Virus record (IMG/VR): IMGVR_UViG_3300046522_000744
Location: 1-45,268 of that record
DNA: 45,268 nucleotides
Source of the DNA: a virus
Strand: one strand, 5' to 3'
Shown here: piece by piece, positions 773 through 19,481 of the stretch
Position numbering within the stretch: position 1 is the stretch's first letter
How the letters are laid out: every line of letters starts with the position of its first letter
Notes under the pieces: generated by a model
Seen by the model: the letters and a program-made list of their open reading frames with translations, nothing else
Databases searched by the model: none
What the model was told of the DNA's origin: nothing
Made by a program: the position numbers and the translations under genes

Positions 773-902
773 GCCGAACCATGCGCTGCAGCGAACTGCT
801 CCGGTCGGTCACAGCCGCTGCTCCCACCACCTTCGCCCCCAGCCGCCTTTCCGCAGCGGCTGCGCCCGCCCTCCGCAGTCGCTGAGCTTGGGGTCGTTCG
901 GC
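773..902 (+). other. attC site 1 (integron recombination site)
   Basis: 130 bp from R'' GCCGAAC (773-779) to R' GTTCGGC (896-902), which are exact reverse complements; the match extends to GTCGCCGAAC/GTTCGGCGAC. The L boxes are GCGCTGCAGCGA and TCGCTGAGC, pairing with one unpaired base, as expected for a bottom-strand attC fold. The inner arm CAGCCGCTGC pairs perfectly with GCAGCGGCTG. Strand exchange is expected between G and T of GTT (896/897). Confidence 0.85.
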
Positions 903-1352: not shown

Positions 1353-1479
1353 GCCGAACCAAGCGCTGCAGCGAACAGGCTCCGCGGTCACGGCACCTGC
1401 GGCAGACCACCGCCGTCGTTCCGCCCGCCGGCAGGTGCCGCGCCCGCTCCGCCTGTCGCTGAGCTTGGGGTCGTTCGGC
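1353..1479 (+). other. attC site 2
   Basis: 127 bp, R'' GCCGAAC (1353-1359) to R' GTTCGGC (1473-1479). The inner stem is CGGCACCTGC pairing with GCAGGTGCCG, a different stem sequence from attC1 but equally complementary. The conserved 3' flank GAGCTTGGGGTC precedes R'. It follows the cassette 2 stop codon by 18 nt. Confidence 0.85.
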
Positions 1480-1977: not shown

Positions 1978-2107
1978 GCCGAACCATGCGCTGCAGCGAA
2001 CTGCTCCGGGCGTCACAGCCTGTGCTCCCGCCCGCAGACCCGCCCCCGCCGCCTTTCCGCACAGGCTGCGCCGCCCTCCGCAGTCGCTGAGCTTGGGGTC
2101 GTTAGGC
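1978..2107 (+). other. attC site 3
   Basis: 130 bp, R'' GCCGAAC (1978-1984) to R' GTTAGGC (2101-2107). The outer pair is slightly mismatched (G opposite A), probably because R'' and R' came from different recombination partners. The inner stem CAGCCTGTGC pairs with GCACAGGCTG. L boxes are as in attC1. Confidence 0.85.
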
Positions 2108-2136: not shown

Positions 2137-2502
2137 ATGGAAGAACCGAATTCGATGCCCTCTTTCTGGCATGGCATTGCTGAGGGTGGCCCGCTGGTCA
2201 TGGCTCTTTGCCTGTCCATGGTCATAAGCTTTTGCCTCGCGCTCGTGTTCTCATTCCGTCGTCCAGGCAGTGTCGCTGCTTTTGCGTGTTCAGGTGCTCC
2301 ATTCGTGTTCGGTGCTGCTGCGTTGTGGCTCGGCGTCGTTGGCGTTTTAGCCGTCATTTCCGGCGTTATGTATGAAGGCGGCACGGTCGAGAGGCTGCGA
2401 CTTGTGCAGCGTCCATTCTTCCTCGGCACTGGTCTTTCCTGCGTGGCGTTTATCGTCTATTCCTTTGCTCGTGCGCTCAACTCCAAGACCCGCAACGCCT
2501 AA
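2137..2502 (+). CDS. Cassette 4: multi-pass membrane protein, unknown function
   Basis: 121 aa with four hydrophobic stretches (about residues 19-39, 45-66, 67-77 and 95-112). The stop codon TAA (2500-2502) lies inside the R'' box GCCTAAC of attC4, so the cassette is maximally compact. An alternative in-frame ATG is seven codons in (MPSFWHGIAEGG). No family recognised; acts in the membrane if expressed. Confidence 0.6.
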   Translation: MEEPNSMPSFWHGIAEGGPLVMALCLSMVISFCLALVFSFRRPGSVAAFACSGAPFVFGAAALWLGVVGVLAVISGVMYEGGTVERLRLVQRPFFLGTGLSCVAFIVYSFARALNSKTRNA

Positions 2503-2626
2503 CCATGCGCTGCAGCGAACTGCTCCGGGCGTCACAGCCTGTGCTCCCACCCGCAGACCCGCCCCCGCCGCCTTTCCGCACAGGCTGCGCCGCCCTCCGC
2601 CGTCGCTGAGCTTGGGGTCGTTAGGC
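2497..2626 (+). other. attC site 4
   Basis: 130 bp, R'' GCCTAAC (2497-2503) to R' GTTAGGC (2620-2626), exact reverse complements. Inner stem CAGCCTGTGC/GCACAGGCTG, nearly the same sequence as attC3 and attC6. It provides the stop codon of the cassette 4 gene. Confidence 0.87.
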
Positions 2627-3307: not shown

Positions 3308-3431
3308 GCCTAACCATGCGCTGCAGCGAACCGCTCCGTGCGTCACGGCACCTGCTTCCGCCGCCACCTTTCCCCCCACCATGCAGGTGCCGCGCCGCTC
3401 CGGCGTGTCGCTGAGCTTGCGGTCGTTCGGC
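3308..3431 (+). other. attC site 5
   Basis: 124 bp, R'' GCCTAAC (3308-3314) to R' GTTCGGC (3425-3431). The inner stem GGCACCTGC pairs with GCAGGTGCC, with a different loop (TTCCGCCGCC...) from attC2. The 3' flank reads GAGCTTGCGGTC, one base off the usual GAGCTTGGGGTC. Confidence 0.83.
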
Positions 3432-3845: not shown

Positions 3846-3975
3846 GCCGAACCATGCGCTGCAGCGAACTGCTCCGGGCGTCACAGCCTGTGCTCCCACC
3901 CGCAGACCCGCCCCAGCCAGCTTACCGCACAGGCTGCGCCGCCCTCCGCAGTCGCTGAGCTTGGGGTCGTTCGGC
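3846..3975 (+). other. attC site 6
   Basis: 130 bp, R'' GCCGAAC (3846-3852) to R' GTTCGGC (3969-3975), exact reverse complements. Inner stem CAGCCTGTGC/GCACAGGCTG as in attC3 and attC4. L boxes GCGCTGCAGCGA and TCGCTGAGC present. Confidence 0.86.
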
Positions 3976-4421: not shown

Positions 4422-4548
4422 GCCGAACCATGCGCTGCAGCGAACAGGCTCCGCGGTCACGGCACCTGCGGCAGACCACCGCCATCTTTCCACCCACCGG
4501 CAGGTGCCGCGCCCGCTCCGCCTGTCGCTGAGCTTGGGGTCGTTAGGC
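4422..4548 (+). other. attC site 7
   Basis: 127 bp, R'' GCCGAAC (4422-4428) to R' GTTAGGC (4542-4548). The inner stem is CGGCACCTGC/GCAGGTGCCG, nearly the same as attC2, consistent with cassettes 2 and 7 sharing an origin. Confidence 0.85.
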
Positions 4549-4555: not shown

Positions 4556-5491
4556 ATGCTCATTAGTTCTCTCGCCACCACAGAGGAGCAGGCACGCGCC
4601 CGCATGAATTGGATTCAGTGGAGCGCGCTGGCGACCCGAATGAAGCGTAAGGCGGCGATTTCCGAACTCGTTTTGCTTCCTCGCTTTCAAAACTACAAGA
4701 AGTCGAAGGTCTGTGATGATGTCACCCTAAAGCAATACCTCAGCAACGGATGGACAACAGAGGCATTACTCGTCCAAAACTACACATTCTTTAGCGGTGA
4801 CGCACTCAGGAACAGCTTAGTCTGGGCATTTCCTCAGGCATACTACTCCGTGTTTTCCGTGACACTCGCCTACTTCCAGATGTCCGGCTTTAGCGATGGC
4901 CAGACGCACGCGTCACTCATCCGAAAATTTGGCGACGAAGCCGATTTGGCACATTACCCGTGCTTAGTTTCATTCATCGCTTGCGGCGGCATCGAACACA
5001 AGCGCACCTTCAAGAACTGCAAGAAGACGCCCCTGCCTTCGCCCCTTCATTTCGACGATACTGATTCCGACGTGGTAGATACTCATATCGCCAGCCTTTT
5101 GAGCACTACACGTCAGTCCGACCTTCGGGACCGCCTGATAGACCGCAAACACAAAACCAAGTCAGGGAAGCCAAAGAAGAAATTCACTGAGGCCGAATAC
5201 GCGAGTGTCGGCAAGAACCTCGGACACACGTCGATTCTTAGCTTTCTGTATCGCAAGCGCATCAAGAGCAATTACCAAGATATTGATAGCATTCTTTCAT
5301 CTGAGCTGAAGGCAGAAGACATATTTCTGCGAGTGCTGCGTGTTGTTGATTGCATGCATGTTATCCACGAGGCATACATCGCTCGGGCGATTGGCGGCAA
5401 AGCCTACGAAGCCTTGCTCGATTCGCTCCCAACCGGGGTCACACACTTACCGAAGAAGCGCTTTGAGCACATCAAACCTACCGTGCCCTAA
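4556..5491 (+). CDS. Cassette 8: 311-aa soluble protein of unknown function
   Basis: The largest cassette gene, 311 aa, with no membrane segment. It is helical, basic and aromatic-rich. Notable stretches are YYSVFSVTLAYFQMSG (about residues 99-114), a basic hinge KHKTKSGKPKKKFTEAEY (about 200-217) and HTSILSFLYRKR. The ATG is 8 nt after R' of attC7; a second ATG (MNWIQW) lies 16 codons in. The stop TAA sits inside the R'' box of attC8. I do not recognise a family. The size and helical character would fit a HEPN-like or other effector fold, but no catalytic motif is visible, so I assign none. Confidence 0.7.
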   Translation: MLISSLATTEEQARARMNWIQWSALATRMKRKAAISELVLLPRFQNYKKSKVCDDVTLKQYLSNGWTTEALLVQNYTFFSGDALRNSLVWAFPQAYYSVFSVTLAYFQMSGFSDGQTHASLIRKFGDEADLAHYPCLVSFIACGGIEHKRTFKNCKKTPLPSPLHFDDTDSDVVDTHIASLLSTTRQSDLRDRLIDRKHKTKSGKPKKKFTEAEYASVGKNLGHTSILSFLYRKRIKSNYQDIDSILSSELKAEDIFLRVLRVVDCMHVIHEAYIARAIGGKAYEALLDSLPTGVTHLPKKRFEHIKPTVP

Positions 5492-5609
5492 CCATACGCT
5501 GCAGCGAACCGCTCCGCACGTCACGGCGGCTGCTTCCGCCACCGCCTTGCCGCCTACCATGCAGCCGCCGCGCCGCGCTCCGCGGTCGCTGAGCTTGGGG
5601 TCGTTAGCC
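5486..5609 (+). other. attC site 8
   Basis: 124 bp, R'' CCCTAAC (5486-5492) to R' GTTAGCC (5603-5609). The inner stem CGGCGGCTGC pairs with GCAGCCGCCG. The R boxes depart from the GCC(T/G)AAC/GTT(A/C)GGC seen elsewhere, but the L boxes (ACGCTGCAGCGA, TCGCTGAGC) and flank are conserved. Confidence 0.8.
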
Positions 5610-6134: not shown

Positions 6135-6210
6135 GGCTAACAATGCGCTGCAGCGAACTGCTCCGCGCGTCACGCTGGCTGCTTCCGACACCGCCTTGCC
6201 GTCTGCCACC
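6135..6210 (+). other. attC site 9, truncated; probable left prophage boundary
   Basis: R'' GGCTAAC (6135-6141), L'' ATGCGCTGCAGCGAAC and the first inner arm CGCTGGCTGC are present, and the loop runs on to GTCTGCCACC. The partner arm, L' (TCGCTGAGCTTGGGG) and R' are missing. Homology to attC8 stops at about 6205-6212, and from there no further cassette features occur. The gene order changes to leftward phage genes, so this is the most likely left junction of the prophage. Confidence 0.7.
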
Positions 6211-6256
6211 GGATGCGCACTTTTGGAATATCCCAAATTTTTGCCCCCACCTAACA

Positions 6257-6285
6257 CCCGCGGCGCTCCGGAGAACGACCGCGGG
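6257..6285. terminator. Inverted repeat at the end of the phage late operon
   Basis: CCCGCGG (6257-6263) and CCGCGGG (6279-6285) form a perfect 7-bp stem around a 15-nt loop that itself contains CTCCGGAG. It lies just downstream of the last leftward late gene (stop at 6308), where a terminator is expected. No clean T-tract follows on the leftward strand, so factor-independent termination is uncertain. It may equally belong to the attachment region. Confidence 0.35.
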
Positions 6286-6307
6286 CGTCAAGTGAAATGA
6301 CCTCCGC

Positions 6308-6658
6308 TTATTCGCCGGGCGCGGTCTGAGCCGGCGCGGCCGGAGTTTCACCAGCGGGCGCGGTATTCGGGATGATATCCGCGAGCGCCTTCGATTTGGC
6401 TTCGAGGCGATCGAGCGTAGCCAGGCCTTCCGCCGTGAGCCGCTCTTCGCGCAGTTTGGCGAGTTCGGCGGTGATCTCCGTAGAGGCTTCGTTGAGGCCG
6501 GTTTCGACGGCCGCGAGACGTGTGTTGATGTTCATAGTGGTGGTGACGAGTTGGCTTAGTAGTTCCTCGATTCTGACGAGGGGCAGGCCTGCGTCCGGTG
6601 CGGACTTCAGCTCGACACTGGACGGGATGATGAACCGGAAATTAAAGTTGAAATCCAT
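6308..6658 (-). CDS. Small coiled-coil-like phage protein, last gene of the late operon
   Basis: 116 aa from ATG at 6658. The N-terminus MDFNFNFRFIIP is followed by a helical, Leu/Glu/Ala heptad-like region over about residues 27-90 (IEELLSQLV, LAAVETGLNEA, AELAKLREERL) and an Ala/Pro-rich tail. It lies 22 nt after the stop of the signal-peptide-bearing tail protein. Position and coil suggest a small tail-fibre accessory or chaperone, but this is inference. Confidence 0.55.
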   Translation of the reverse strand: MDFNFNFRFIIPSSVELKSAPDAGLPLVRIEELLSQLVTTTMNINTRLAAVETGLNEASTEITAELAKLREERLTAEGLATLDRLEAKSKALADIIPNTAPAGETPAAPAQTAPGE

Positions 6659-6680
6659 ATAGGACCTCGTGCGGACGCTA

Positions 6681-8636
6681 TTACGGCGTGCCCTGTTGGG
6701 TCGTGGTGATGGTGAAGACACCGCTATTATTCGTGGTGGCGTTAGTCCGGCTGCCGTCGGCATCGTCGGTCACGCGCATCACGCCTTCGCCGATGTCCAG
6801 CGCAGTGACCGCCGCGGCGCTACCGTTGATCGCGGTGACCAGCGCGTCGCGCAGATCATCGCCGACGACCGTCATGCTATCCACGTCGGCAACCAGCACG
6901 TTCGTCCCACCGACCGCCGGGGCTCCGGAGCCTCCATCGACGTTCCAGTAGAAGTTCCAGCGACCAGTGGCATCCCAGATCGACACATAGTCGCCATCGG
7001 CCAGGCTGGCGGCCGTCCAATCCGCGATCGTGGCAATCTCGGGCTCGCCCGCACCGCCACTCTGAATCCGCACCGCCCCGTTCGCGCCGCTGCCGAGATT
7101 ACCGTTCTGAAGCAAGGTCGCGCCGGCGTTTTCGATATCGAAGTCGCTCGCGCTGTCTTCACCGAGAAAGACGGAACCGACCACGCGGACCGTGCCACTA
7201 TCTCCGAGTTTCAGCGGCGCACGCGCGCTGCCACTCGGATCGAAAGTGACTCCCGAGAAGGTGACATCGATGCCGCCGGAAATATTCCAGATCTCGGTGC
7301 CTTCCTCCTGCTCGTCGGTGTAGCCGCGGATGCGACCCTGATTCCAAAACACTTTCCCCTGTGGATAAGTGAGATAGAACATCGCCAGCGGGTTTTCTTT
7401 CCCAGCCAGGTCCCACTCCAGGACGTTCAGATACACCTCGGCCAGGTCGGTCCCTTCGTAGGCACGCACGGAAAGCGGCGAACCATCGGAGCCGCCCTCT
7501 TCAAAGCCATCGAGCGCCTCGACCTTCTGCCCGGTGATGTAAACCTTGGTGACGGTGTTTTGCGGGGCGATGGCAAACCCCCCGAAAGTTTTCTGGAAGG
7601 TGAAATAAGTTTTGCCGCCGTGGCAAACGTTGGCCTTGCGATCGCCCTTGATGACGAGCGACTCGACCCACATGACCGCGCTGGCGACGTGGCTGGTGTG
7701 ATAGACCGGCTCCGAATGGCCGGCATGCAGCAGATCGCCCCGGAAATAGAAATCGCCGGTCGGCGTGGAGTTTACTTCGCCCCAGAGATTGTAGTCGTCG
7801 CCGTAAGACTTCGGGCAATGGATGAAGCCCTCACCATTGAGCCAGGCCCACGTCCATCCGCGGCACATCGACCTCGCCTCCTTTTTCAGGAACAGCCACA
7901 TGTGGCCGTTCTCCTGGATGGCGGCCGAGACCGTCGGACCACCGGTCGTGTTATTGTCCGTGGTCGTGTAGATCGAATCGAGTTCGACCACGACCGCAGA
8001 GCTGGAGTTGCGCACCGCGATCGCGCCACACCGGCTGTCGAATTTGTTCGGAGCCGAGGTGTCGTGGAAACTCAGCGTGCCGGCGCCGGAAACTCGATAG
8101 CTCATCGCCGCCGTGGCCACGGGCGGGCTGGCGGTGTTGCCGTCGTCGAAGATGCCCTGGCTGTTGAGCGTGTTACTCCGCGCGATCGTCGAACCTTCGC
8201 AGAGGTACCAATTCACGCCGTTGCGGGCGAGCGAGGTTGTGACGTTGTAGAGCCCCGGTGCGCGAACAAAGGCCAGTCCCCCACCGCCGGCCAGCTTCAA
8301 GGCTTCCGCCGCGGTGGCCGGGCTCGCGAAAGCGCGATTCGGATCTCCGATGACCCCAGCCGCGATGCCGTTGGTTCCGTCGATGAAAGCCGTCTTGGTG
8401 GCATTTCCGATGACGACTCCGCCGACCGAGATGGTGCCGGCCGCGGCGTTCAGCGAAGCGCCAGGGGCGAGCTCAAGCGTCTGTCCGCTCGGAACGGTGA
8501 AACCTTTGCTGATCGTGCTCCCGCTCGGATCGAGGGTGAGCGGGATGCGGCTCTGCGCGAAGGCCCCTGCGGGCGCCAGCGCGAGGAGCAACGCGAGGAC
8601 GAGTTTGAAAACGGTAGTCGGCATTGTGTGATTCAT
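6681..8636 (-). CDS. Large tail-associated protein with an N-terminal signal peptide
   Basis: 651 aa. ATG at 8636 follows the stop of the previous gene by 2 nt. Residues about 5-28 form a classical Sec signal (MPTTVFKLVLALLLALAPAGAFAQS) with an AFA-Q cleavage site; for brevity the motif core is LVLALLLALAPAG. The mature part is Gly/Ser/Thr-rich and beta-rich, with repeats such as GVTFDPSGS, VVGSVFLGEDSAS and LLQNGNLGSGANG typical of right-handed beta-helix tail-spike domains (about residues 60-520). The C-terminal 120 residues include FNFYWNVD-like and TAINGSAAA.. segments. Likely a tail spike or a phage-encoded exported surface protein. A Sec signal is unusual for a virion protein. Confidence 0.65.
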   Translation of the reverse strand: MNHTMPTTVFKLVLALLLALAPAGAFAQSRIPLTLDPSGSTISKGFTVPSGQTLELAPGASLNAAAGTISVGGVVIGNATKTAFIDGTNGIAAGVIGDPNRAFASPATAAEALKLAGGGGLAFVRAPGLYNVTTSLARNGVNWYLCEGSTIARSNTLNSQGIFDDGNTASPPVATAAMSYRVSGAGTLSFHDTSAPNKFDSRCGAIAVRNSSSAVVVELDSIYTTTDNNTTGGPTVSAAIQENGHMWLFLKKEARSMCRGWTWAWLNGEGFIHCPKSYGDDYNLWGEVNSTPTGDFYFRGDLLHAGHSEPVYHTSHVASAVMWVESLVIKGDRKANVCHGGKTYFTFQKTFGGFAIAPQNTVTKVYITGQKVEALDGFEEGGSDGSPLSVRAYEGTDLAEVYLNVLEWDLAGKENPLAMFYLTYPQGKVFWNQGRIRGYTDEQEEGTEIWNISGGIDVTFSGVTFDPSGSARAPLKLGDSGTVRVVGSVFLGEDSASDFDIENAGATLLQNGNLGSGANGAVRIQSGGAGEPEIATIADWTAASLADGDYVSIWDATGRWNFYWNVDGGSGAPAVGGTNVLVADVDSMTVVGDDLRDALVTAINGSAAAVTALDIGEGVMRVTDDADGSRTNATTNNSGVFTITTTQQGTP

Positions 8637-8638
8637 GG

Positions 8639-10381
8639 TCAGGCGACGAAGCCGGTGCGGCCCGCGACCCAGGCGGTGCCGTTGAAAGTGAAGTCTCCGC
8701 ACCACTTGGCGGCCGCGACCTGGCTGAGCGCGCTGGCGAGCAGCGTGCCACCGCTGGTGGCGTTGTGGATCTCGAGAGTGCGGTTCACGCCGCTGGAAAT
8801 TGCCGCCGTGACGAAAACTTTGTCGCCGGTGGTTCGTCCGGAAGTAGGCAACGCCACGGTGGCCGTGAAAGTGCCGCTGCCGTTGAGCGTCACGTCCGCC
8901 GTGTGGCTCATGCTGGTGGGCACGAGCGCCGTGTTGCCGGCAGAGCTGATCGCCGTCGCGGCTTCGTAGCTGCTGCTTCCACTGCCACCACCCGCACCGA
9001 CGCTCTGCAGTTTCCAGACGACCGCGTTGGTCGACGCATGATAATCGTCCGGCCGGATCACGTTCGGCGAAGATTCCGCGTCCGTTCCTGCCTCGAGGCG
9101 GAAAAACTTCAGCTCCCCGCCGGAGTGTTTGAAGACATGCAGGCCGAGTGCGCGGCCGACGGTAACGACAGAATCGAGGTCGCTTGAAGTGCCACCTGTG
9201 TAACCGGTCGTCGCGCTGAGATAACGCACGATCTGGCCGGGCGTCGGATAGTTCGGACTGAGCGTGGAGAGCAGCGCATCGAGGTCGATGATGTCCTTGC
9301 TGACGGTGACCTGTGTTTGCAGCACGGTCGCCGGATCTTCATCGGGAAAGGTGATCTGCAGCTCGAGCCTGGGAGAGAGCGTATCGCTGCCGGATTCGAG
9401 AAAGGCCCGGTAAAGCCCATCGCCATTGAGCCGCAATGTGCCCGTGACCGTCTTCGGCGCGAGCATGTCGATATCCACCGCCGTCATCTGCGTGATGTTC
9501 GTATCGGCGAGACCGCCAATGAACTCGACCTGGTAAGCGAGGCTCGCCGAACCGGTGACGGAAACTTTTCCGGAGCCGATGCTCGGATGCGCTTCGATGA
9601 TCGTCTGCAACTCCGCTGCCGTCGCTGTGACAGGGACGACAAACGTGCGAGAGACCGGGCTGCCTCCAATAACGACGGTGAGAGAGTAGGTGCCGGCATA
9701 AGTGCCGGCCGCGAGTGTAATGGTTTGGACTTCGTTATTCCCTGTGCCCCCGGCCTGCACCGTGGCCACGGTAACGCTTGGACCCGGACCCGATGTCCAG
9801 GAGTCGATCAGCGCGTAGGGGTTTTGCTTCAGTTCGACGATCCAGACTTCATTCGTGGTGGAGTCACCCGCGATCAGTTGAGCGAGCCGGATGTAGCTGG
9901 AGGGTTGCAGCCCGTTGGCGACCTGCGTGAAATTATCCTTCGCCCCGACGGTCGAGAAAGTGATGCGGAAGAAGTTCGCTTCCTTCGTGACCGTGGCGAT
10001 GCCGCCATCGCTGGTGATCGCCGCGTTGGCGTTGAGTGCGGTCTTCAGCTCATCTGCCGTGATGTCCCAATCGAGCGCGGCGAGGCCCGTGCTCGATCCA
10101 TCGTAAGCGATGCCAAAGGTACCAGCCACAGGCGCCAGGTCCGCTTGGCCGATTGCCAGGCGAATGCCGCCGGCGGCGCGGGCGTCCTCGAGATCGATGT
10201 CGTCCCAAAGCCGTGCCCCGCTGGCATTCGGCTGCACACAGCGCAGCGTGACCGGCATGCCGTCGTTGCGGATCAGCGTCGAGATCGAGCCGCGTCCGGA
10301 CGAAGAAAAAAGCGAGAGCAGGCCCTGCCGATCGGGCGCAGAAACATCGACGAGGAGATTGAGAGTCGAGAGCGCGGACAC
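8639..10381 (-). CDS. Phage tail structural protein (distal tail or fibre), 580 aa
   Basis: 580 aa, beta-rich, Ser/Thr/Gly-rich, no Cys except one near position 48 and one near the end. Two related repeats appear, DWDITADELKTALNANAAITS (in parts) and VTATAAELQTIIEAHPSIGS, each followed by a beta hairpin. These are typical of phage proteins built of repeated alpha/beta insertion domains. The C-terminal 150 residues (SYEAATAISSAGNTAL.., TLNGSGTFTATVALP) resemble a fibre tip. It lies between the Cys-rich proteins and the signal-peptide tail protein. Role inferred from position. Confidence 0.6.
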   Translation of the reverse strand: MSALSTLNLLVDVSAPDRQGLLSLFSSSGRGSISTLIRNDGMPVTLRCVQPNASGARLWDDIDLEDARAAGGIRLAIGQADLAPVAGTFGIAYDGSSTGLAALDWDITADELKTALNANAAITSDGGIATVTKEANFFRITFSTVGAKDNFTQVANGLQPSSYIRLAQLIAGDSTTNEVWIVELKQNPYALIDSWTSGPGPSVTVATVQAGGTGNNEVQTITLAAGTYAGTYSLTVVIGGSPVSRTFVVPVTATAAELQTIIEAHPSIGSGKVSVTGSASLAYQVEFIGGLADTNITQMTAVDIDMLAPKTVTGTLRLNGDGLYRAFLESGSDTLSPRLELQITFPDEDPATVLQTQVTVSKDIIDLDALLSTLSPNYPTPGQIVRYLSATTGYTGGTSSDLDSVVTVGRALGLHVFKHSGGELKFFRLEAGTDAESSPNVIRPDDYHASTNAVVWKLQSVGAGGGSGSSSYEAATAISSAGNTALVPTSMSHTADVTLNGSGTFTATVALPTSGRTTGDKVFVTAAISSGVNRTLEIHNATSGGTLLASALSQVAAAKWCGDFTFNGTAWVAGRTGFVA

Positions 10382-10396
10382 GCCGCTCGGGACGTG

Positions 10397-10885
10397 TCAA
10401 TCGCGAGCCACTGGCCTCAGAGCCCGCGGGAGGACGGCCAGAACGATGGCGGCGACGACCAGCAGTTCCGCGGCGCGCGGGCGAAACGGGAAGCGGCGCG
10501 CAGCGGCAGCTTCCTGCAGCCAGCCGACGATTTCGCCGCGGTGCTGCCACGACCAGACCGCGCCGGCGCGATCCAGCGTCCTTGCTCGGGAATTGCAGCG
10601 GCAGCTCTCCTCGGCGTGCCCAAGCCGCGCAAGGAGCGCCTTGAGAACCGTGCCGACCGGGGCGAGGCGTTTCGTTTTTCGCTTCGCATCGATGCGCGTC
10701 GGCGCCGCTGCGATCGGCGGCGGCGGCGCAGGCGTGGGATCAGGCTGCCCGGGCGCCAATCCATCCGATCGCTGGCAGACCCGTCTGCACAGGATTTCGG
10801 TCGGGTAGCCACGATAAAAGCCGAGATCGCAGCGGCCGGCGTTGGGTTTGTGACAGGCATGCCAGTGGGAGCATTGAACACTCAT
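10397..10885 (-). CDS. Cys-rich phage protein with C-terminal membrane segment
   Basis: 162 aa. The N-terminal region has Cys-His clusters (CSHWHACH, CDLGFY, CRRVC), a Pro-rich linker (about 48-60), then CRCNSRARTLDRAG, the helix EIVGWLQEAA and a hydrophobic stretch at about 139-155. The CxC..N..G...EI..WL pattern recurs in small genes next to tail genes of many prophages, function unknown. It overlaps the next gene upstream by 4 nt (stop/start at 10882-10885). A Zn-binding N-terminus is inferred from the Cys/His spacing. Confidence 0.6.
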   Translation of the reverse strand: MSVQCSHWHACHKPNAGRCDLGFYRGYPTEILCRRVCQRSDGLAPGQPDPTPAPPPPIAAAPTRIDAKRKTKRLAPVGTVLKALLARLGHAEESCRCNSRARTLDRAGAVWSWQHRGEIVGWLQEAAAARRFPFRPRAAELLVVAAIVLAVLPRALRPVARD

Positions 10886-11970
10886 GAGATTCGCAAAGTC
10901 ATCGGCTCTCCCTCCTCGCAGCCAAAGTATGTGTGGAGACCCGGCAGGAGCACTCCCTCCACCTTGCCCGCAGGCAGCTCAGGATTCCCACCGTCGGGAT
11001 CAATATCGAAAATTCCGTCGACCCCTGCATAGCCGCCGGCAATGTGGTCGTAGGCGTAGACCCAGAGCTGCCACTTGCCGGTGATCAGGCACGGCTCTGC
11101 TTCACCCACCTCGCAGGTGCGGCTGATGTAGTCCTCGCAGGGAAGATTCGCCCAGCTGAGCACCAACTGGAAGTCGCCCTCCTCGGGAGGGAGTGGGTCG
11201 TAGAGGAAGAAGTCGCATCTCCCTTCCTCCCCTCCCGTGCGCAGCGCGACCGCGATGCGAGAGTCCGGGCATTCCGGAACGGTGATGCCGTAGGCGCCCG
11301 CCATGAGCCCATCCGCGTAGTCCGACCAGCAGCAATCCGGACCGTGAACGAATTGCCCGCGGCATTCCGCGAGCTGGGTGCATTTAGTGCAGCGCGTCAG
11401 CTCTCGCTCGGCCTCGCCATCGACCGCCATCACCTTCAGCATGAAGTTTGGGATGCGATTGAGATAAGAGCAAAAGTCGGGGCGCCAGATGTGATCCACC
11501 GAGGTCATCAGAGCCTGATTGAAAGAACGGAAGACGCGCAGTCCCGGCGCATCCGTTTCGCCCCACGGACAATTTGTTGCCTCCGGATTTTCAACCCTCG
11601 CGAGAAACACCGGGGTTATTTCCGGCGGGCAACCCTCCTCCGCGATTTCCGTGGGCTGCGTCGCTGAAAACTCTTCCGGCGTGTGGCAGTCCGCCTCCCA
11701 GAACTCTTCCGGGTCGAGCGCGTAAAAATCGTAGGCGAGGGTTTCGCCCGGTCGAAGCTGCGCGAGCAATTCAGGAGGCGGGTCTGGCCACCGAAAACCG
11801 ATATCGAAGCCGTGAAATCTTGGCGGGCGATAATCGGTGTCCCCGTAGTATTTCGGGTAGCAGGGCGACTCGTTTGAAGCCAGGCAGATCTCCAAACCGA
11901 TGGCCTCGCAAAGGCAGCCGTTCGCGCAACCGCAGCAACTCCCAGGGCATTTCTGTTGGATGCGTCCCAC
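10882..11970 (-). CDS. Cysteine-rich structural protein of the tail module
   Basis: 362 aa with more than 20 Cys. The N-terminus CPGSCCGCANGCLCE looks like a metal- or disulfide-bound knot. Further pairs include CTKC and DCCWSDY. No hydrophobic segment or signal is present. It lies between the repeat-containing fibre gene and a second Cys-rich protein. Such Cys density in a cytoplasmically made virion protein suggests Zn binding rather than disulfides. Family not recognised; the tail role is inferred from context. Confidence 0.55.
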   Translation of the reverse strand: MGRIQQKCPGSCCGCANGCLCEAIGLEICLASNESPCYPKYYGDTDYRPPRFHGFDIGFRWPDPPPELLAQLRPGETLAYDFYALDPEEFWEADCHTPEEFSATQPTEIAEEGCPPEITPVFLARVENPEATNCPWGETDAPGLRVFRSFNQALMTSVDHIWRPDFCSYLNRIPNFMLKVMAVDGEAERELTRCTKCTQLAECRGQFVHGPDCCWSDYADGLMAGAYGITVPECPDSRIAVALRTGGEEGRCDFFLYDPLPPEEGDFQLVLSWANLPCEDYISRTCEVGEAEPCLITGKWQLWVYAYDHIAGGYAGVDGIFDIDPDGGNPELPAGKVEGVLLPGLHTYFGCEEGEPMTLRIS

Positions 11971-11973
11971 GGC

Positions 11974-13023
11974 TCAGGGCACGACTACTTTGCGGATGAC
12001 GTTCCAGTCTTCGGGCTCTCCTCCGACGCACACGCCTTCGAGCGTCGCCAGCTCCCAATCCCCGGACGAGTTATCTTCGAGAACTTTGATCTTCAGGTTT
12101 CGGACTTCGTAAACACCGCCTTCGGTACTGGAACCGAGCACCTTGATCCATTTATCCGTGCCTCCTGCGCCAGTGCCATTCGCGGCGGCCGTGATGCGAC
12201 CCTGCGCATCGACGGTGAGGTTGGTGTTTGTATAACTCCCCGCCGTCACGGCCGTGTTCGCCAGCTTACCCGCCGTGACGTTGCCGTCGGCGATCTTGTT
12301 CGTGGTGACCGCGTTATTCGCAATCTTCGCTTCGACCACGGCATCGGTCGCGAGCTTGGCCTCGGTAACAGCTCCGTCGGCGATCTTCGCTTCCGTGACT
12401 GCATCGTCCGCAATCTTCGCTTCCGTGACCGCCTCGTCGGCGATCTTCGCTTCGGTGACGGCCTCATCGGCAAGTTTGGCCTCGGTGACCGCTTCGTCCT
12501 CGATCTTCGCCTCGGTGACCGCTTCGTTCTCGATCTTCTCTTCGCTGACCGCCCCGTCCTGAATCTTCCCGGTCGAGACGCTGAGATTGGCGAGTTCGGT
12601 GTTGCCGACCACGCCGGGGTTGATCGTCCACAGCGTGCCGCTGCTGAAGACCGTGATATCGCCCTTGTCCCCATCCGCCAGCGTCGAGGCACGAATGTCG
12701 ATCGGCGCGCCGTTTGCGCCAGGCATGATGATGATACTGCTGTCGCCGGAGGTCAGCCGCGCATGGATGAAGCTTTCGCCATCGACATCCACCACCTCGA
12801 TGCCTTGGCCGGCGGCGATCGTGAGCGCACCCTCCGCGGCGTCGAGATTCAGCTTGAGCACGATCTTACCTTCCTGGACGACCAGCGCGCCGGCCCCGGA
12901 CGGACTGACCTGAAGATTGAGCAGCGCGTTGAGGTAACCGATCACCGAGTTCGCGGTGAGGGTGTGCAGCATCGTCGGCATCTGGCCTCGCACCAAGGGC
13001 CGGATGTATTCCACCCCAGCCAT
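11974..13023 (-). CDS. Tail fibre protein with 11 tandem decapeptide repeats
   Basis: 349 aa. Residues about 150-260 contain 11 tandem decapeptides of consensus AVTEAKIADE (variants TGKIQDGAV, TEAKLATDAV, TTNKIADGNV). This type of repeat is seen in phage fibre shafts. The N-terminal 120 residues include SIIIMPGANGAP and are likely the attachment domain. The C-terminal 60 residues (GTDKWIKVLGS...) are a globular tip. ATG at 13023 overlaps the preceding gene's stop. Confidence 0.75.
   Translation of the reverse strand: MAGVEYIRPLVRGQMPTMLHTLTANSVIGYLNALLNLQVSPSGAGALVVQEGKIVLKLNLDAAEGALTIAAGQGIEVVDVDGESFIHARLTSGDSSIIIMPGANGAPIDIRASTLADGDKGDITVFSSGTLWTINPGVVGNTELANLSVSTGKIQDGAVSEEKIENEAVTEAKIEDEAVTEAKLADEAVTEAKIADEAVTEAKIADDAVTEAKIADGAVTEAKLATDAVVEAKIANNAVTTNKIADGNVTAGKLANTAVTAGSYTNTNLTVDAQGRITAAANGTGAGGTDKWIKVLGSSTEGGVYEVRNLKIKVLEDNSSGDWELATLEGVCVGGEPEDWNVIRKVVVP
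12247..12576 (-). repeat. Eleven 30-bp tandem repeats coding the fibre shaft
   Basis: Eleven consecutive 30-bp units, in frame, encoding the decapeptides of the fibre shaft. On the + strand the recurring unit looks like CTTCGCTTCGGTGACGGC with drift. Central units are most alike and edge units diverge, the pattern expected from slippage or unequal recombination. Copy number could change without a frameshift and alter shaft length. Confidence 0.75.
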
Positions 13024-13655
13024 TACGGCGCGATGCCTCCGTAGACGCGCGGCTTCGAGCCGCCTTCCCGCAAGAGCTTGGTGATCCGTTCCCAGATGTT
13101 CCCCCGCCAGCGCCGCAACGTGGAATCATCGGCCGTCACAAAGCCGCCGTCCGAGGCGTAGGTGCCTCGTTGAAAGATCAGCCGGCGAGTGGATCCAATA
13201 CGGTAGCCGGACAGGATCGGGATCGTGCGCGGATCCGAAGCCAGGAAATACTCGTAACGCAGATAGGTCGTCGTGACCGCTGGCAGATTGACGACACGAA
13301 GAACTTCCTCTTCGTCCTCCAGCGTGTCCTGAAATTCGTAACTCGTCCCTTCCGCCTCAAAACGCGGATTGGGGATCGTGGCAAAGGTGCGTTCCCATTC
13401 GGCTACGTCGCCGCCGAGGATCGAAGGATCGCTTTCCTCGACCAGGATGGAGCCGAAGGGTCCGGCCGAATCGCGCGGCAGTGGCACCCAGAATCCGATG
13501 CGCTGCCACATCGGCTGCACATAGAGCATCGACTGCGTTTCGGTCAGCAACCGCGGCTTGAGCGGACCATGCGGCTGCGCGATCTCGAGGGAGTCGTCGT
13601 AATGCACGCCGCGCACACTTCGACTCGGCGTTCTGGCTTGTGATGGGCCGGGCAT
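13023..13655 (-). CDS. Minor tail protein (baseplate or tip), unknown family
   Basis: 210 aa, mixed alpha/beta, no Cys. Segments such as GFWVPLPRDSAGPFGSIL, EDEEEVLRVVNLP and YLRYEYFLASDPRTIPIL suggest a soluble tail-tip subunit. It lies between the gene following the tape measure and the fibre gene, matching the place of lambda M/L/K/I-type minor tail genes. Name not assignable from sequence. Confidence 0.5.
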   Translation of the reverse strand: MPGPSQARTPSRSVRGVHYDDSLEIAQPHGPLKPRLLTETQSMLYVQPMWQRIGFWVPLPRDSAGPFGSILVEESDPSILGGDVAEWERTFATIPNPRFEAEGTSYEFQDTLEDEEEVLRVVNLPAVTTTYLRYEYFLASDPRTIPILSGYRIGSTRRLIFQRGTYASDGGFVTADDSTLRRWRGNIWERITKLLREGGSKPRVYGGIAP

Positions 13656-13671
13656 GAAATTCGGCGCGGTG

Positions 13672-13935
13672 TCAGAGGTTCACGCCCAGGCGCTCTTTGA
13701 GAGTCGTGTGAATTTCCCCGAGCTTGTCGACCACGGGATCGGCAGCCTTCACGCCGTCACCGCCGCGGCCAGGCGCTTTGCGGTCGAGCAGCTCCTGCTG
13801 CTTTTTCGGACGCAGCTCATCCATGAAATCCTTGCGGTTGAAGTCCGCTTCCGACTGTCCGCCACGCCGCCGCAGATCTTCTTCCCGGGCGAAGCGAGCG
13901 CGCAGACTTTTCTCCTGGCGCTCACTGCGCCGCAT
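13672..13935 (-). CDS. Small Lys/Arg/Glu-rich protein overlapping the tape-measure end
   Basis: 87 aa from ATG at 13935, overlapping the last 14 nt of the tape-measure gene in another frame. Highly charged and helical (RSERQEKSLRARFAREEDL, MDELRPKKQQELL), finishing with VVDKLGEIHTTLKERLGVNL. It continues the coiled-coil character of the tape measure. It may be a separate small tail gene or a C-terminal extension reached by frameshifting. I see no convincing slippery heptamer, so a separate gene is preferred. Confidence 0.55.
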   Translation of the reverse strand: MRRSERQEKSLRARFAREEDLRRRGGQSEADFNRKDFMDELRPKKQQELLDRKAPGRGGDGVKAADPVVDKLGEIHTTLKERLGVNL

Positions 13936-15118
13936 CGGGTCCGCCCATCTTTTCGGCGACGAAATCATCTTCGGCCTTTTTGCGGGCCTCGGCGACGCGT
14001 TGTGCGGACGCGATCTTCTCCGCCTCTTCCTGGGCGAGCAGTTCCCGTCCTTTGTCCGCCAGTTCTCGCAGGTAAGCCTTATCCTCTTCCTTGCGCTTAT
14101 CCGCTTTGGCCGCCTGGTCATTGAGGAAGTCCTGCTTTTGCCTGGCCTCGAAGTCCTGCAGCTCCTTGATTTCTTCCCGCTTTTTCTCGGCCGCTTCCTC
14201 CTCCATGTCGGCAAGAGCGTCCGCGGCCTTCTGCTCAGCGCGCACCTGCTCCATGACGAACTTGGCGGCGTCGGTAGTCCGGTCGTCCCTCCGCTTCTTG
14301 TCGATCGCCCGCGCAGCTTCGGCCGTTTTCTTGATGTCGTCGCGCTCGGCGTCTTCCTTGATCGCGCGTTCGCGCGCCTGTTGCAGGCTGGAAAGTGGAA
14401 GCGTTCCTTTGGCCTGCAGCGCCTTGACGTCCTCCGAAAAATTCGCCGGGCCGTTGATGAGGCTTTTTGCCAGGTTCACTTTGAACCCGTTCTTGATCCG
14501 CTCGAGCCGATCGCCCAACGCATCGAGGACGGCGATATCTTCCTTGCTCAAGGTCTGCGCCTGGCGGCGCAATTCCCCGAGCGCTTCGGCTCCGGAATTG
14601 ATCCCCGCCGCCATCTTGAGCCCGGACTTGCCCAGCACGTCGAGGATGCCGGCGAGCCGTTCGGACGGGTCTTGCGCCTCGCCCGCCGAGGCCGCGATGC
14701 GCATGAGGATGCGATCCACGTCGCCGCTGCGCAGATCGTCCATCGTCACGCCGAGTTTGTCGAAGGTCTTGGCCAGGTCGTTGTTTCCCTCGCGCGCCGC
14801 CAGGGCGGTTTGGGAAAGTTTGCTCAGACCTTTGGCGACGACTTCCGAGCCGGCGCCGCTCTGGGCGAAAGCCGCGTTCAGCTCCTGCAGCGCGACGACG
14901 TCGACGCCGATCGCATCGCTGGCGTCCTGCAACTGCCCGCCGAGATCGAGGATCTCGCTGGCGAAGGCCGCGACGCCGGCGACCGAAAGTGAAATGCCGC
15001 CGATCGCAGCCAGTTCCGAGGCAACCGACTTGACGCCGGTCTTCGCCTCCCCCAGCCCCTTGCGAAAGCCAGCGGTGTCCAAGCCCAGTCGCGCGATGAT
15101 GGAGGCGTCCTGGCTCAT
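13922..15118 (-). CDS. Tail tape measure protein (short)
   Basis: 398 aa. Begins MSQDASIIARLGLDTAGFRKGLGEA, typical of tape-measure proteins (xIxARLGLDTAGFxKGL). A hydrophobic Gly/Ala segment lies at about residues 35-60 (ELAAIGGISLSVAGVAAFA), and long charged helices over 240-390 have Ala/Glu/Lys/Asp heptads. It sets tail length during assembly; at about 0.15 nm per residue, 398 residues predict roughly 60 nm. Overlaps the chaperone-like gene upstream by 4 nt. Confidence 0.85.
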   Translation of the reverse strand: MSQDASIIARLGLDTAGFRKGLGEAKTGVKSVASELAAIGGISLSVAGVAAFASEILDLGGQLQDASDAIGVDVVALQELNAAFAQSGAGSEVVAKGLSKLSQTALAAREGNNDLAKTFDKLGVTMDDLRSGDVDRILMRIAASAGEAQDPSERLAGILDVLGKSGLKMAAGINSGAEALGELRRQAQTLSKEDIAVLDALGDRLERIKNGFKVNLAKSLINGPANFSEDVKALQAKGTLPLSSLQQARERAIKEDAERDDIKKTAEAARAIDKKRRDDRTTDAAKFVMEQVRAEQKAADALADMEEEAAEKKREEIKELQDFEARQKQDFLNDQAAKADKRKEEDKAYLRELADKGRELLAQEEAEKIASAQRVAEARKKAEDDFVAEKMGGPDAAQ

Positions 15119-15747
15119 GGCAGTTCCTTCGCGGCCGCCGCGGTGTAGGCGTTGAGGCAGGCGCGTTCCGCGGCCGTGACGAGTCTGTTGCCAAAATCGG
15201 CTTTGGGATTCTCCTCACGCACGATCAAGCGCCAGAGCTGATCGAGCTGCGCAAAGGGGGTTTCCAGGGTCTGCGCCGGTGGCCATCCGTAGGCGAGGGC
15301 AAACTCGTGTGTGAGGCTCGCGAAATAACAGGTGATCGGCTCGCGCTCGGTTCGGGTCGAACTTGGCGGCCGATCCAGGCGCGCCCCTTCGAGATAGTCC
15401 TCGATCGCGTCGCACATTTGTTCGCCGTCCAGGTCGGCAACGCGCGCGCAGAAACTCTCGCGATCGGCGTCACTCTCCGCGCGGACAATCCACAGGAATT
15501 GCACGATGTGCTCGGACAAAACCGTGCCGCCGACGATGACCGGAGAACCGCAGGCCGAGAGCAGCAGCAAGTGACGCGGCCGATACTGCTGCACGGGGAT
15601 GCCGCAGATATCGAGAGGCACATCGAGGAAGGCGAGTTCGCGTCGGCGATGGGTTTCCGCGCGCGCCGCGGCCACGGCTTCGGGCAGGCCGGGGACCTGG
15701 TCGAGTTCGACCGGTATTGCTTTGAGATGACTATCGTCCTGGTCCAT
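15115..15747 (-). CDS. Probable tail assembly chaperone-like protein
   Basis: 210 aa. The core ICGIPVQQYRPRHLLLLSA..SPVIVGG..LSEHIVQFLWIV (about residues 48-90) resembles the domain found upstream of tape measures in many siphoviruses, where it precedes tape-measure assembly. The C-terminal third (FASLTHEFALAYGWPP.., NRLVTAAERACLNAYT) is helical. It lies directly before the tape-measure gene with a 4-nt overlap. No G/GT-type frameshift partner was found. Confidence 0.55.
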   Translation of the reverse strand: MDQDDSHLKAIPVELDQVPGLPEAVAAARAETHRRRELAFLDVPLDICGIPVQQYRPRHLLLLSACGSPVIVGGTVLSEHIVQFLWIVRAESDADRESFCARVADLDGEQMCDAIEDYLEGARLDRPPSSTRTEREPITCYFASLTHEFALAYGWPPAQTLETPFAQLDQLWRLIVREENPKADFGNRLVTAAERACLNAYTAAAAKELP

Positions 15748-15771
15748 GCGCGGAGTGCGCCGGGCCGGGCG

Positions 15772-16152
15772 CTAGGTAAAGCTCTTGGTGAAGGTGATCG
15801 AGAAGGTCGCCTCTCCGTCCTGAATCCAGGAGTCAGAGACGCTTTCCACTTTCCACGCGACCGGGCTGCCACCGCCACGGGGCAGCAGATTAAACTTCTC
15901 GTACTTCTTCGGCAGCTTCTGAGTCGAGGTCCCGAACTGACCAGTGGCCGTGCCGTTGTCGATCTGGTCGATGAAGACTTGTCCGTCCGGTACTCCGACC
16001 TCGTTCAAACGCACCAATTTATTCGCCGGATAATTGATGTTGATGTTTTTGAGGACGTAGTCGGCATTCGTGCCGGTAACGTCCTTCATCGTCGTTTTCT
16101 GGCTGCCGTACTGGACGCCGCCGTCTTGATGAGTTCCTGCGGGATCGGGCAT
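15772..16152 (-). CDS. Putative tail tube protein
   Basis: 126 aa from ATG at 16152 (MPDPAGTHQDGGVQYG). An alternative ATG at 16170 would add six residues and overlap nothing. Small, beta-rich, with INYPANKLVRLNEVGVPDG, SPVAWKVESVSDSWIQDG and ATFSITFTKSFT, i.e. alternating hydrophobic strands. It lies between the tail terminator-like gene and the chaperone-like gene, where the tube protein gene is expected. Shorter than lambda gpV. Assignment is from position and size. Confidence 0.5.
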   Translation of the reverse strand: MPDPAGTHQDGGVQYGSQKTTMKDVTGTNADYVLKNININYPANKLVRLNEVGVPDGQVFIDQIDNGTATGQFGTSTQKLPKKYEKFNLLPRGGGSPVAWKVESVSDSWIQDGEATFSITFTKSFT

Positions 16153-16198
16153 GGCCCGAGGTGGTGTCAATCAAGCGGCTCCACGCCGTCCGCGGCCC

Positions 16199-16681
16199 CT
16201 AGAGTTCCGGCCATGCCGTATCCCGGATGCAAACAGTGCCCGCAATTTGAATGATCGAAACGTCGGTATCGTCGCCGGTTTCGATCGAAGGAATGGTGCC
16301 CGCCTCTTGCCGCGCTGTGAGCACATGAAAAGGCATCAGGGCTTCCGTGAACGAATCGGTGGCGTACTGCGCGATGATGCGCACCCGCGCGCGCATGTGC
16401 CGGTGACTGTCCGGCCCGGCAGCGTCGCGCACTGTCACGACTTCGGCATCGAGGCGGAAAAACCAGGCATCGAGCCAGAATTGTCCGCGCCGATCCGGAC
16501 CGCGATGTCCGGTGGTAGCGCCGAGCGAACACTTGAGATTCACCAGCGGCACCACCAGGTCTTTGGGGCTCCGCTGTGGGTAGGCGCGCATCCCGTGCTT
16601 GCCGAGCACAGCTTCCCACGCGGTTTCCACGGCGGTTTCCACATCGAAAAGCGTTTCGAGATCGGGGGCGGCTTTGCTCAT
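16199..16681 (-). CDS. Tail terminator-like protein (gpU position)
   Basis: 160 aa, alpha/beta, with an N-terminal helix (DLETLFDVETAVETAWEAVL) followed by strands. The pattern resembles tail terminator proteins, which cap the tail tube. Order (joining protein, gp10/Z-like, this, tube, chaperone, tape measure) supports the role. ATG at 16681; 55 nt separate it from the preceding gene's stop. Confidence 0.5.
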   Translation of the reverse strand: MSKAAPDLETLFDVETAVETAWEAVLGKHGMRAYPQRSPKDLVVPLVNLKCSLGATTGHRGPDRRGQFWLDAWFFRLDAEVVTVRDAAGPDSHRHMRARVRIIAQYATDSFTEALMPFHVLTARQEAGTIPSIETGDDTDVSIIQIAGTVCIRDTAWPEL

Positions 16682-16736
16682 CCCCAGCGACCGACGTCAA
16701 CGCCAGCGGACATTTTTTCCCGGCTTTGTGCGCTGC

Positions 16737-17531
16737 TCACTCGGCCACGAAGATTCCAGGATAGCGTGCGGCGCGATAGGTGATATCCGCGAAGACATCG
16801 TGTTTGATGTCGTGTTGAAAGGCGCGGAGACGCTGCTGGATCGCGCCCTGCAGGATGGCCGCGCCATTGTAGCGGCGGATCAGGGCGCCATTCGTATTGA
16901 CCAGCTCGACGAAGCTCGTCGCGCCCTGCTGGACGAAGCGGCTGCGCGCTCCATCGTCGAAGGGCGTGGACGACTTCCGCACATAAACCGGCACTGCGGT
17001 CTTGAGCGGCGCGTTCACTCGCTGCGCAATCTGCACCCACGACTTTTTGAGAGCGCCGACGGCTTTCGCAGCCGCCTGTGCTTTCGGTTCGAGTCCTCCT
17101 GCGATGGAAGTCTGCAGCGCTCGCACGCGTTTCCCCTTTGCCCAATTGCCCGACTCAATGCGCTCCTGGGGAATGAAGACGCGCGCCCCAGCGCGGTTCG
17201 TTCCGACATACCATTGATGCCCGAGCCGACCGCCACGGGTGCCGGTGAGCGTTTGCAGGAACGGTCGCTCCGGCCGGCCGACGCGATTGTTGGGCGGGAC
17301 CAGGGTCCCCTTTTCGTCGACGTAACGCGAGGGCTTCATCACGCGCAGCGCAGCTTTGAATTGCGCGTCTTTGTAGTTGCCGGATTTCGGTCCGGGGCTG
17401 CGCGTGATGCAAATGCTCAGAACGTGCCCGGCCTGTTGCCCCAAGACTTCCTCGCGCGGTTTCCCGCTGATCTCGGTGAGACCCTGGATAAAGGCGTCGA
17501 AGCCGCGAGTGTCGAGTTCTGCAGCGTTCAC
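16737..17531 (-). CDS. Minor tail / head-tail connector protein (gpZ or HK97-gp10-like position)
   Basis: 264 aa. The N-terminus ELDTRGFDAFIQGLTEISGK followed by a basic middle (RSPGPKSGNYKD, RYVDEKGTL, RVGRPERPF) and a helical C-terminus is typical of the HK97 gp10/gpZ class of tail completion proteins. ATG at 17531, 20 nt after the preceding stop. Assignment by position and general pattern. Confidence 0.5.
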   Translation of the reverse strand: MNAAELDTRGFDAFIQGLTEISGKPREEVLGQQAGHVLSICITRSPGPKSGNYKDAQFKAALRVMKPSRYVDEKGTLVPPNNRVGRPERPFLQTLTGTRGGRLGHQWYVGTNRAGARVFIPQERIESGNWAKGKRVRALQTSIAGGLEPKAQAAAKAVGALKKSWVQIAQRVNAPLKTAVPVYVRKSSTPFDDGARSRFVQQGATSFVELVNTNGALIRRYNGAAILQGAIQQRLRAFQHDIKHDVFADITYRAARYPGIFVAE

Positions 17532-17550
17532 CCTGCCGCCCGCACGTCAA

Positions 17551-17871
17551 TCACTGGCCGTGCGTCGGCTTGAGATGCAGGCGCAGAAGCGGATCGGCCG
17601 GATCGTCCTCGATCACGAAGAGCTGCCTCTTTTTTCCGTCGAGCGTCACGACCAGGCGGTCGGCCAGCCGCAACCGTGAAAATTCCGTGCGCTTCATTTC
17701 AACGACCACGGAGCCTTCCGCCCAAAGGCCAGAGTCCCGCAGTTCTTTCGAGGCCAGAGAATTGCCGGCCACGCAGGTCGCCGTGAGACCGTTGTGCGCG
17801 ATGGTGGAAGGGGCTTCTTCAGCAACCTCATCAAAGCCTTCCTCGAAGATGTCCGAAAATTCGCCCATCAC
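17551..17871 (-). CDS. Head-tail joining protein, gpFII-like
   Basis: 106 aa. The opening MMGEFSDIFEEGFDEVAEEAPSTI and the beta-rich rest (EMKRTEFSRLRLADRLVVTLDGKKRQLFVI-EDDP; key points RTEFSRLR, GKKRQLFVI) follow the layout of lambda gpFII (FDNLF..A...A..T; RTDEVRQLRRGDTL). It would connect the head to the tail. Overlaps the preceding gene by 4 nt. Confidence 0.5.
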   Translation of the reverse strand: MMGEFSDIFEEGFDEVAEEAPSTIAHNGLTATCVAGNSLASKELRDSGLWAEGSVVVEMKRTEFSRLRLADRLVVTLDGKKRQLFVIEDDPADPLLRLHLKPTHGQ

Positions 17872-18083
17872 TCCGCGCCCATTTTTCTGCGCGGACCGCC
17901 CGGCACTGGCGCGGTGATTTCTTCGAGTTCCCCGAGCTTATCGCGGAGTTTCCGCAGCTCCACATGAGCGGCCGTCTTATCCCCGAAAACCTTGACCGTG
18001 CCATCGCTCCGGATCGCGATCTGCGCGATGTTGTGACCGGTGGCCGGCGCGTAACAGTTGAGGATCGAGGCGATCGGGCTCAT
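17868..18083 (-). CDS. Small phage protein of unknown function
   Basis: 71 aa. MSPIASILNCYAPATGHNIAQIAIRSDG begins with a short beta-like stretch and is followed by a helix HVELRKLRDKLGELEEI. Overlaps both neighbours by 4 nt (stop/start at 18080-18083 and 17868-17871), so translation is probably coupled. In the head-tail joining region; not recognised. Confidence 0.6.
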   Translation of the reverse strand: MSPIASILNCYAPATGHNIAQIAIRSDGTVKVFGDKTAAHVELRKLRDKLGELEEITAPVPGGPRRKMGAE

Positions 18084-18676
18084 GCCTCAACCTTGGCCTT
18101 GTCGAGCTTGACGTGCGGGGCCTGGGGTTGCGTCTCGACCTGCAGAAACTTCACCACCTCGAGGCGTTTGGCTGGGCTGTTCTTGAGCAGCCGATCGAGG
18201 ACATCCTGGAAGCTCTTGCACGGCTCGAAGGTCTCGAATCGATCGAACAACGTCGAGAAGTGATCGCCAGCCAGGCGGCGCGCTTCCGTCTCCCGCTCCG
18301 CGAAAAACTCCCGCAGTAACTTCGGCGAACCTTTCTTCACGCCTTTGGTCACGAGCCATTCCTTGTACGCATCCTTGGGGTAGAGATCGAAGGACAACGC
18401 TTTCTCAGTCGGCACCACGACGCTGCAAACGTGATCGTTGGCGTCGCCGTATTTCCCCGCAACCGCAGCGGCCAGGGCCACCCGCTCGGCCAGATCGAGA
18501 GTTTGATTGGCCCGTATCTTCTCCGCGATCGCAGCCGGCGCGCGCAAAAGGATCAACTCCCGCTTTTCGTCTTCCAACTTGGCCTGCAGAGCTTCCACCT
18601 GCTGCGTGTAGTGATGGATGCTGTAGACGATGGCGTCGCTTTCAGGCGACCGAATGATCTCAGGTTTTGCGGGCAT
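18080..18676 (-). CDS. Phage head-region protein of unknown function, 198 aa
   Basis: 198 aa from ATG at 18676. Helical and charged; a coiled-coil-like segment lies at about residues 24-45 (YTQQVEALQAKLEDEKRELI) and a second helical half at 105-170 (LLREFFAERETEARRLAG). It lies between the decoration protein and the joining protein, near the lambda FI position. A strong hairpin (18702-18739) precedes it. Function not recognised. Confidence 0.6.
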   Translation of the reverse strand: MPAKPEIIRSPESDAIVYSIHHYTQQVEALQAKLEDEKRELILLRAPAAIAEKIRANQTLDLAERVALAAAVAGKYGDANDHVCSVVVPTEKALSFDLYPKDAYKEWLVTKGVKKGSPKLLREFFAERETEARRLAGDHFSTLFDRFETFEPCKSFQDVLDRLLKNSPAKRLEVVKFLQVETQPQAPHVKLDKAKVEA

Positions 18677-18701
18677 GGTGGTGTGGTTGCGGAAAGGCCG
18701 C

Positions 18702-18739: not shown

Positions 18740-18789
18740 CCCTGCCTATGAATCAAACAAACTGCGGCGGGCGCGCTGGCCCGCGGAAT

Positions 18790-19197: not shown

Positions 19198-19221
19198 GAG
19201 GTGCGTCGTTCTTGGCAGCGC

Positions 19222-19437: not shown

Positions 19438-19481
19438 GGTGTGAAAAAGTGGGCTTGCGGAGAGATGACGGACGCGCGGGC

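Follow-up and report, generated by a model that had tools for sequence, protein, structure and literature searches.

Prophage DNA joined to a truncated attC site: probable secondary-site landing of a tRNA phage, and attC use by a separate integrase clade in Verrucomicrobiota

We analyzed a 45,268-base virus record from IMG/VR (IMGVR_UViG_3300046522_000744; hereafter "the window," meaning this stretch of DNA over its full length), in which the ninth attC site of a cassette array is truncated and is followed directly by a genuine prophage. The phage end falls in the attachment (att) interval of a clade of phage integrases that use tRNA 3' ends. The account that we favor, with moderate confidence, is that a tRNA phage landed by means of its own integrase at a secondary site in the attC loop. 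A comparison with other loci further supports the conclusion that attC can be used as attB by tyrosine-integrase phages and islands in Verrucomicrobiota, through integrases of a separate clade that act at a different spot in the site.

The cassette array and the position of the junction

The left 6.2 kb of the record is a cassette array, in which alignment delineated 8 intact attC sites at 773-5609 (Table 1). Since 20% of the array consists of attC, a random landing in it would hit one about 1 time in 5, so that a single junction does not establish site-specificity. Of the ninth site, attC9, what remains is R'' (GGCTAAC, 6135-6141), the L'' region (CGCTGCAGCGAAC), and the first arm (CACGCTGGCTGC) together with its loop, whereas the second arm, L', and R' are missing. 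The remaining 5' part is conserved to the same degree as in the intact sites. Within the array, the cassettes at 924-1334 and 3996-4403 encode similar small membrane-type proteins, likely reflecting a cassette duplication.

Table 1. Features of the window (positions in the 45,268-base record)
Feature	Position	Strand	Basis or remark
attC 1, intact (R'' to R')	773..902	+	alignment
attC 2, intact	1353..1479	+	alignment
attC 3, intact	1978..2107	+	alignment
attC 4, intact	2497..2626	+	alignment
attC 5, intact	3308..3431	+	alignment
attC 6, intact	3846..3975	+	alignment
attC 7, intact	4422..4548	+	alignment
attC 8, intact	5486..5609	+	alignment; bottom strand folds into a long hairpin
attC 9, partial (5' side: R'', L'', first arm, and loop); putative host side of attL	6135..6209	+	alignment; end placed by the fixed loop of 12 sister attC
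Junction, probable crossover zone; GCCAC common to the attC loop end and the tRNA T-stem 3' strand	6205..6210	.	inference
Possible phage-borne tRNA-Arg-like acceptor 3' strand, discriminator, and CA (CGGATGCG CA)	6210..6219	+	comparison with Verrucomicrobiota tRNA-Arg genes; suggestive only
Prophage of about 39 kb, cut off at the right by trimming of the record	6210..45268	.	phage genes; partly collinear with a complete related phage (G014)
Tyrosine integrase (phrog_1)	43955..45268	+	family alignment shows conserved catalytic R, RH, and Y

The break was placed with a ruler consisting of attC sites that share the first arm of attC9, gathered from 40 genomes of one family. In all 12 attC of the same subfamily in these genomes, the loop has a fixed length of 22-23 nt from TTCC to GCAGCCAGC, and this geometry implies that DNA derived from attC9 stops at ...GCCAC (6209) and that foreign DNA begins at 6210. 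The position is uncertain by about 5 nt, since GCCAC may be common to both sides. The cut coincides with the boundary between loop and arm, and phage DNA follows with nothing in between. A naturally longer attC9 loop, which would include the GGATGC on the phage side, is unlikely given the fixed loop of the 12 sister sites. The preliminary description of this DNA had stated that attC9 keeps its 5' half without the second arm, L', and R', and that the lost part starts where the phage begins, at about 6205-6212; alignment to the 8 intact sites confirms the former, and the loop geometry agrees with the latter, the break at 6209/6210 lying inside that range.

On the phage side, the junction lies about 98 bases past the last phage open reading frame (stop at 6308). 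By synteny, it corresponds to the interval between the integrase and tail genes, where attP is located in the relatives G014 and G015 and in the prophage of G336.

The prophage and its record

Profile searches identified genes for a terminase, portal, SppA-type protease, major head protein, tail fiber, and tyrosine integrase to the right of the junction. The relative G014, with a 127-base terminal repeat, has a complete genome of about 40.8 kb; it shares the integrase and, between the SppA-type protease (at about 21 kb) and a point near 37 kb, is for the most part collinear with the window phage. With 39.06 kb visible, the window prophage is thus nearly whole. As had been noted earlier, the window ends at the integrase stop codon, but this is an effect of trimming of the IMG/VR record by a provirus caller: 4 other records (L147, L151, L152, and L181) are cut at precisely the same point, their integrase stop, and attR is lost from view through this way of trimming. 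Close copies of the window phage were not found in IMG/VR, and searches of the window yielded neither a tRNA nor an Rfam family above threshold.

The window integrase belongs to a clade that uses tRNA 3' ends

In the phylogenetic tree, the window integrase forms one clade (support 100/99) with those of G014, G015, G336, L142, L144, L145, and L146, to which it is 33%-38% identical. A tRNA 3' end lies downstream of the integrase gene in all 7 relatives with visible att DNA: at 60-600 bases past the integrase stop in G014, G015, and G336, with L142, L144, L145, and L146 providing 4 further cases. The G336 genome carries a complete prophage between 34-bp repeats (with one mismatch) of the 3' end of a tRNA-Leu gene, at 154.9 and 197.0 kb, with the complete tRNA-Leu at the integrase-distal end and the repeat at the integrase side. 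The layout of the window would be the same: its integrase-distal phage end lies where the clade relatives predict, and the integrase side falls outside the record. In contrast to these relatives, the window junction has attC9, not a tRNA gene, on its host side. Most Verrucomicrobiia integrases in a wider sample also adjoin a tRNA or tmRNA gene, and no attC of the window type was found in the flanks of the scanned Verrucomicrobiia integrase loci, nor any attC in the flanks of the scanned loci whose integrases are close to that of the window. One of the examined loci (L065, G006:C90, 3236-5636) contains 16 tRNA-like genes in 2.4 kb near a phage-type integrase.

The phage side of the junction itself is suggestive of the 3' end of a tRNA-Arg gene, judging from sequence resemblance. 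From 6210, the window reads CGGATGC, G, CA, and CTTTT, whereas tRNA-Arg genes of the matching class end in CGGATGC-A-CCA, CGGGTGC-G-CCA, and similar strings (that of L125 reads TTCCCACCGGATGCACCACTTTT). The acceptor-like 7-mer begins exactly at the break that was set independently by attC geometry, and a CTTTT-type run also follows the tRNA end in G336 and G015. The resemblance amounts to a short stretch of 7-8 nt in addition to the shared CCAC, and the discriminator G was not seen together with the exact window acceptor in any recognized tRNA-Arg gene. Acceptor 7-mers of the tRNAs match the window at 0.4% of positions; when a few positions of leeway are allowed, the tRNA-Arg match would arise by chance with a probability of about 2%, and of up to about 5% when one considers that some of the tRNAs were added to the set once the motif was known.

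A separate integrase clade at the attC L'' palindrome

Viral contigs were scanned for attC 3' and 5' motifs, which returned 5 records in all, one of which led to the locus L068, whereas the rest hold cassettes or arrays. L068 (G400; IMGVR_UViG_3300047678_000650) is a contig that encodes a portal, a major head protein, and a tape-measure protein and in which the integrase gene starts about 130 bases from an attC without R''; no tRNA piece was found by eye at this junction. The L197 integrase is 68% identical to that of L068, and its attC is broken at the same position. A genome search with the L068-type integrase added L223 (57%), L234 (73%), L254 (75%), and L255 (59%), of which L223 and L254 retain the part from L'' to R' beside the integrase gene, whereas L234 and L255 retain the R'' half. 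All breaks in this group lie at or beside the L'' palindrome, CGCTGCAGCG, in either orientation. These 6 attC cases group together in the tree (96/93), apart from the window clade, with L222 inside, so that 6 of the 7 sampled members are found at the palindrome. Upstream of the L222 integrase gene (G370:C85; 71% identical), no attC was found; its host side reads CTACTACAGCG, possibly another target. Relatives with about 45% identity are located at tRNA-Ser and tRNA-Asp.

One genome shows the complete arrangement on a single contig, where a whole integrative element of 25.8 kb occupies an attC (G316:C35:9731-35542; L260 and L261). The element lies between the two attC halves, with AAGTCGCCTAACCATGCGATGCAGCTA at the left end and TGCAGCTAACAGGCTCCGCC...TTCTCGTTAGGCC at the right end. 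An 8-bp core, TGCAGCTA, is present at both ends, and when the host flanks are joined, the empty site emerges as a canonical attC whose bottom strand folds. The cargo includes the phosphorothioation genes for DndA, DndB, DndC, and DndD. Both ends were seen in G316 only, the other 5 attC cases providing one end each. In G425, a major head gene lies near the attC-clade integrase, and the second end of this prophage was not found within 37 kb. The clade thus serves both phages (at least 2 members) and a defense island.

The window is not a further case of this kind. A break of the L068 type was considered for it and rejected, as the L'' palindrome is intact in attC9 (about 6146-6155), with the break at 6209, and the window integrase falls outside the attC clade in the tree.

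Explanations for the window junction

Under the reading that we favor, the junction would be an attL, formed when the integrase of a temperate phage recombined attP with attC9, the latter serving as a secondary attachment site that was split in two. The attP of this phage clade holds the 3' end of a tRNA gene, and the primary site of the window phage would be a tRNA-Arg gene. Crossover may have taken place at or beside GCCAC, a stretch that the phage would share with the attC loop at its 3' edge. The remainder of attC9 (GCAGCCAGCG..GTCGCTGAGCTTGGGGTCGTTRGGC) would then be expected beyond 45268, where attR would lie, following a tRNA-Arg T-arm that runs into CCAC. That the integrase catalyzed the event is what we infer from the phage-side break, which lies about 98 bases past the last gene and within the att interval; integrase action is therefore favored over random deletion and over chimeric assembly of the contig, since a random break would mostly have fallen in a gene. 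The 7-base T-loop, which would be the overlap in the window clade, has no match in attC9, and landing at a secondary site is known here from one event only.

The possibility that the window integrase has evolved for the loop/arm region of attC, making attC9 its normal attB, gains some weight from the position of the junction within an attC, from the demonstrable use of attC by the sister clade, and from the conservation of the loop edge, CCACC[AG]TGCAG, in many attC, which would provide a multi-copy target. We nevertheless regard such a dedicated attC phage as unlikely: all 7 clade mates with visible att DNA are at tRNA 3' ends, the scanned loci of integrases near that of the window all lack a flanking attC, the loop position differs from the L'' palindrome at which the attC clade acts, and the phage side of the junction resembles a tRNA end. 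An origin by assembly chimerism or later rearrangement, in which a phage residing in a tRNA-Arg gene elsewhere was joined to the array by a chimeric read or a deletion, accords with the single metagenomic record and the lack of a second copy in IMG/VR. The phage-side break, however, falls in the expected core, a span of a few dozen bases in a phage of about 39 kb, and the attC repeats and the phage have no long common sequence that could mislead an assembler, so that we give this origin a low probability.

The integron machinery itself offers another route, whereby IntI joined attC to a site in the phage or the phage took up part of an array, and phages can indeed carry cassettes and attC, as in Vibrio anguillarum (PMC9892861) and in 2 viral contigs described below (L067 and L107). 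The window break is in the loop rather than at R' or R'', and an intI gene was not noticed in the window. IntI cuts in R' (G/TT), so that the position disfavors it and renders this route very improbable. Arrays can also terminate in truncated attC sites, and attC9 could be such a natural, degenerate end, next to which the phage entered unrelated DNA. This reading is equally improbable, as no DNA at all separates attC9 from the phage, and the 5' part of attC9 is conserved as well as that of intact sites.

Integration of the phage into attC, as initially proposed, consequently stands insofar as a prophage end at the attP place lies inside an attC and an integrase-mediated event accounts for it best. 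The proposal that attC is the evolved attB of this phage was not supported, given the tRNA 3' ends used by 7 of 7 clade mates and the tRNA-Arg-like junction, whereas the suggestion that tyrosine-integrase elements, including phages, target attC turned out to be right for another integrase clade and another spot, the L'' palindrome. A wider proposal, that attC is a regular landing site of Verrucomicrobiota phages and islands, comprising the L''-palindrome clade and the window phage as an independent entry at the loop edge, is conceivable but doubtful.

Relationship to known systems

To our knowledge, the established attC-targeting elements are insertion sequences and group II introns only. Among the former, literature cited in PMC11187229 (Tetu and Holmes 2008; Post and Hall 2009) describes IS1111-attC insertion sequences as targeting attC. 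They resemble the window in being mobile elements inside an attC but have an RNA-guided DEDD transposase and subterminal inverted repeats and insert at one end of the site, whereas the window holds a 39-kb phage with structural genes and a phrog_1 tyrosine integrase, a content that speaks against an IS1111-attC element, with the break in the loop. Group IIC-attC introns, retroelements inserted at R'' into TTGT/T (PMC7923331), are likewise mobile elements in attC, but no group II intron RNA was detected in the window (no Rfam family above threshold). The prophage Va_90-11-286_p16 of V. anguillarum, whose excision borders at attC were attributed to integron activity, resembles the window in these borders but is flanked by 2 attC that share a 68-bp repeat and carries an integron, in contrast to the one attC split in its loop here (PMC9892861).

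Phages that integrate at tRNA 3' ends, such as mycobacteriophage Ms6, whose tyrosine integrase uses an attachment site in the T-loop of tRNA-Ala (PMC1762012), share with the window the integrase family, the location of its clade mates in tRNA 3' ends, and possibly the att site beside the integrase gene and a tRNA 3' piece at the phage end, and differ in having a tRNA gene rather than attC on the host side. The attC clade resembles the window in having a Verrucomicrobiota tyrosine integrase beside a broken attC, in phages as well, and differs in integrase clade, in attP being upstream of the integrase gene, and in the break at the L'' palindrome. In the open-access literature, we found no tyrosine-integrase phage or island that uses a single attC as attB, which is not proof of novelty.

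The window alone is a curiosity, and the attC integrase clade is the more general result. If attC serves tyrosine-integrase phages and islands in this manner, integron arrays would be docking sites for prophages and defense islands, every landing would break one cassette recombination site, which excision can restore, and phage integrase and integron competing for the same DNA would offer a testable case.

Cassettes and attC were also observed in viral contigs in other settings. A contig with a phage capsid gene (L067; IMGVR_UViG_3300047328_000087, 8783-9708) continues, right after a head-tail gene, into a cassette and an attC of the attC9 subfamily, an arrangement that represents either cassette capture by a phage or a chimera. 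An AT-rich viral contig of 51.7 kb (L107; IMGVR_UViG_3300046778_000197, 3400-4100) carries 2 attC with a small gene between them, a pair that resembles the attC clusters reported in lytic phages.
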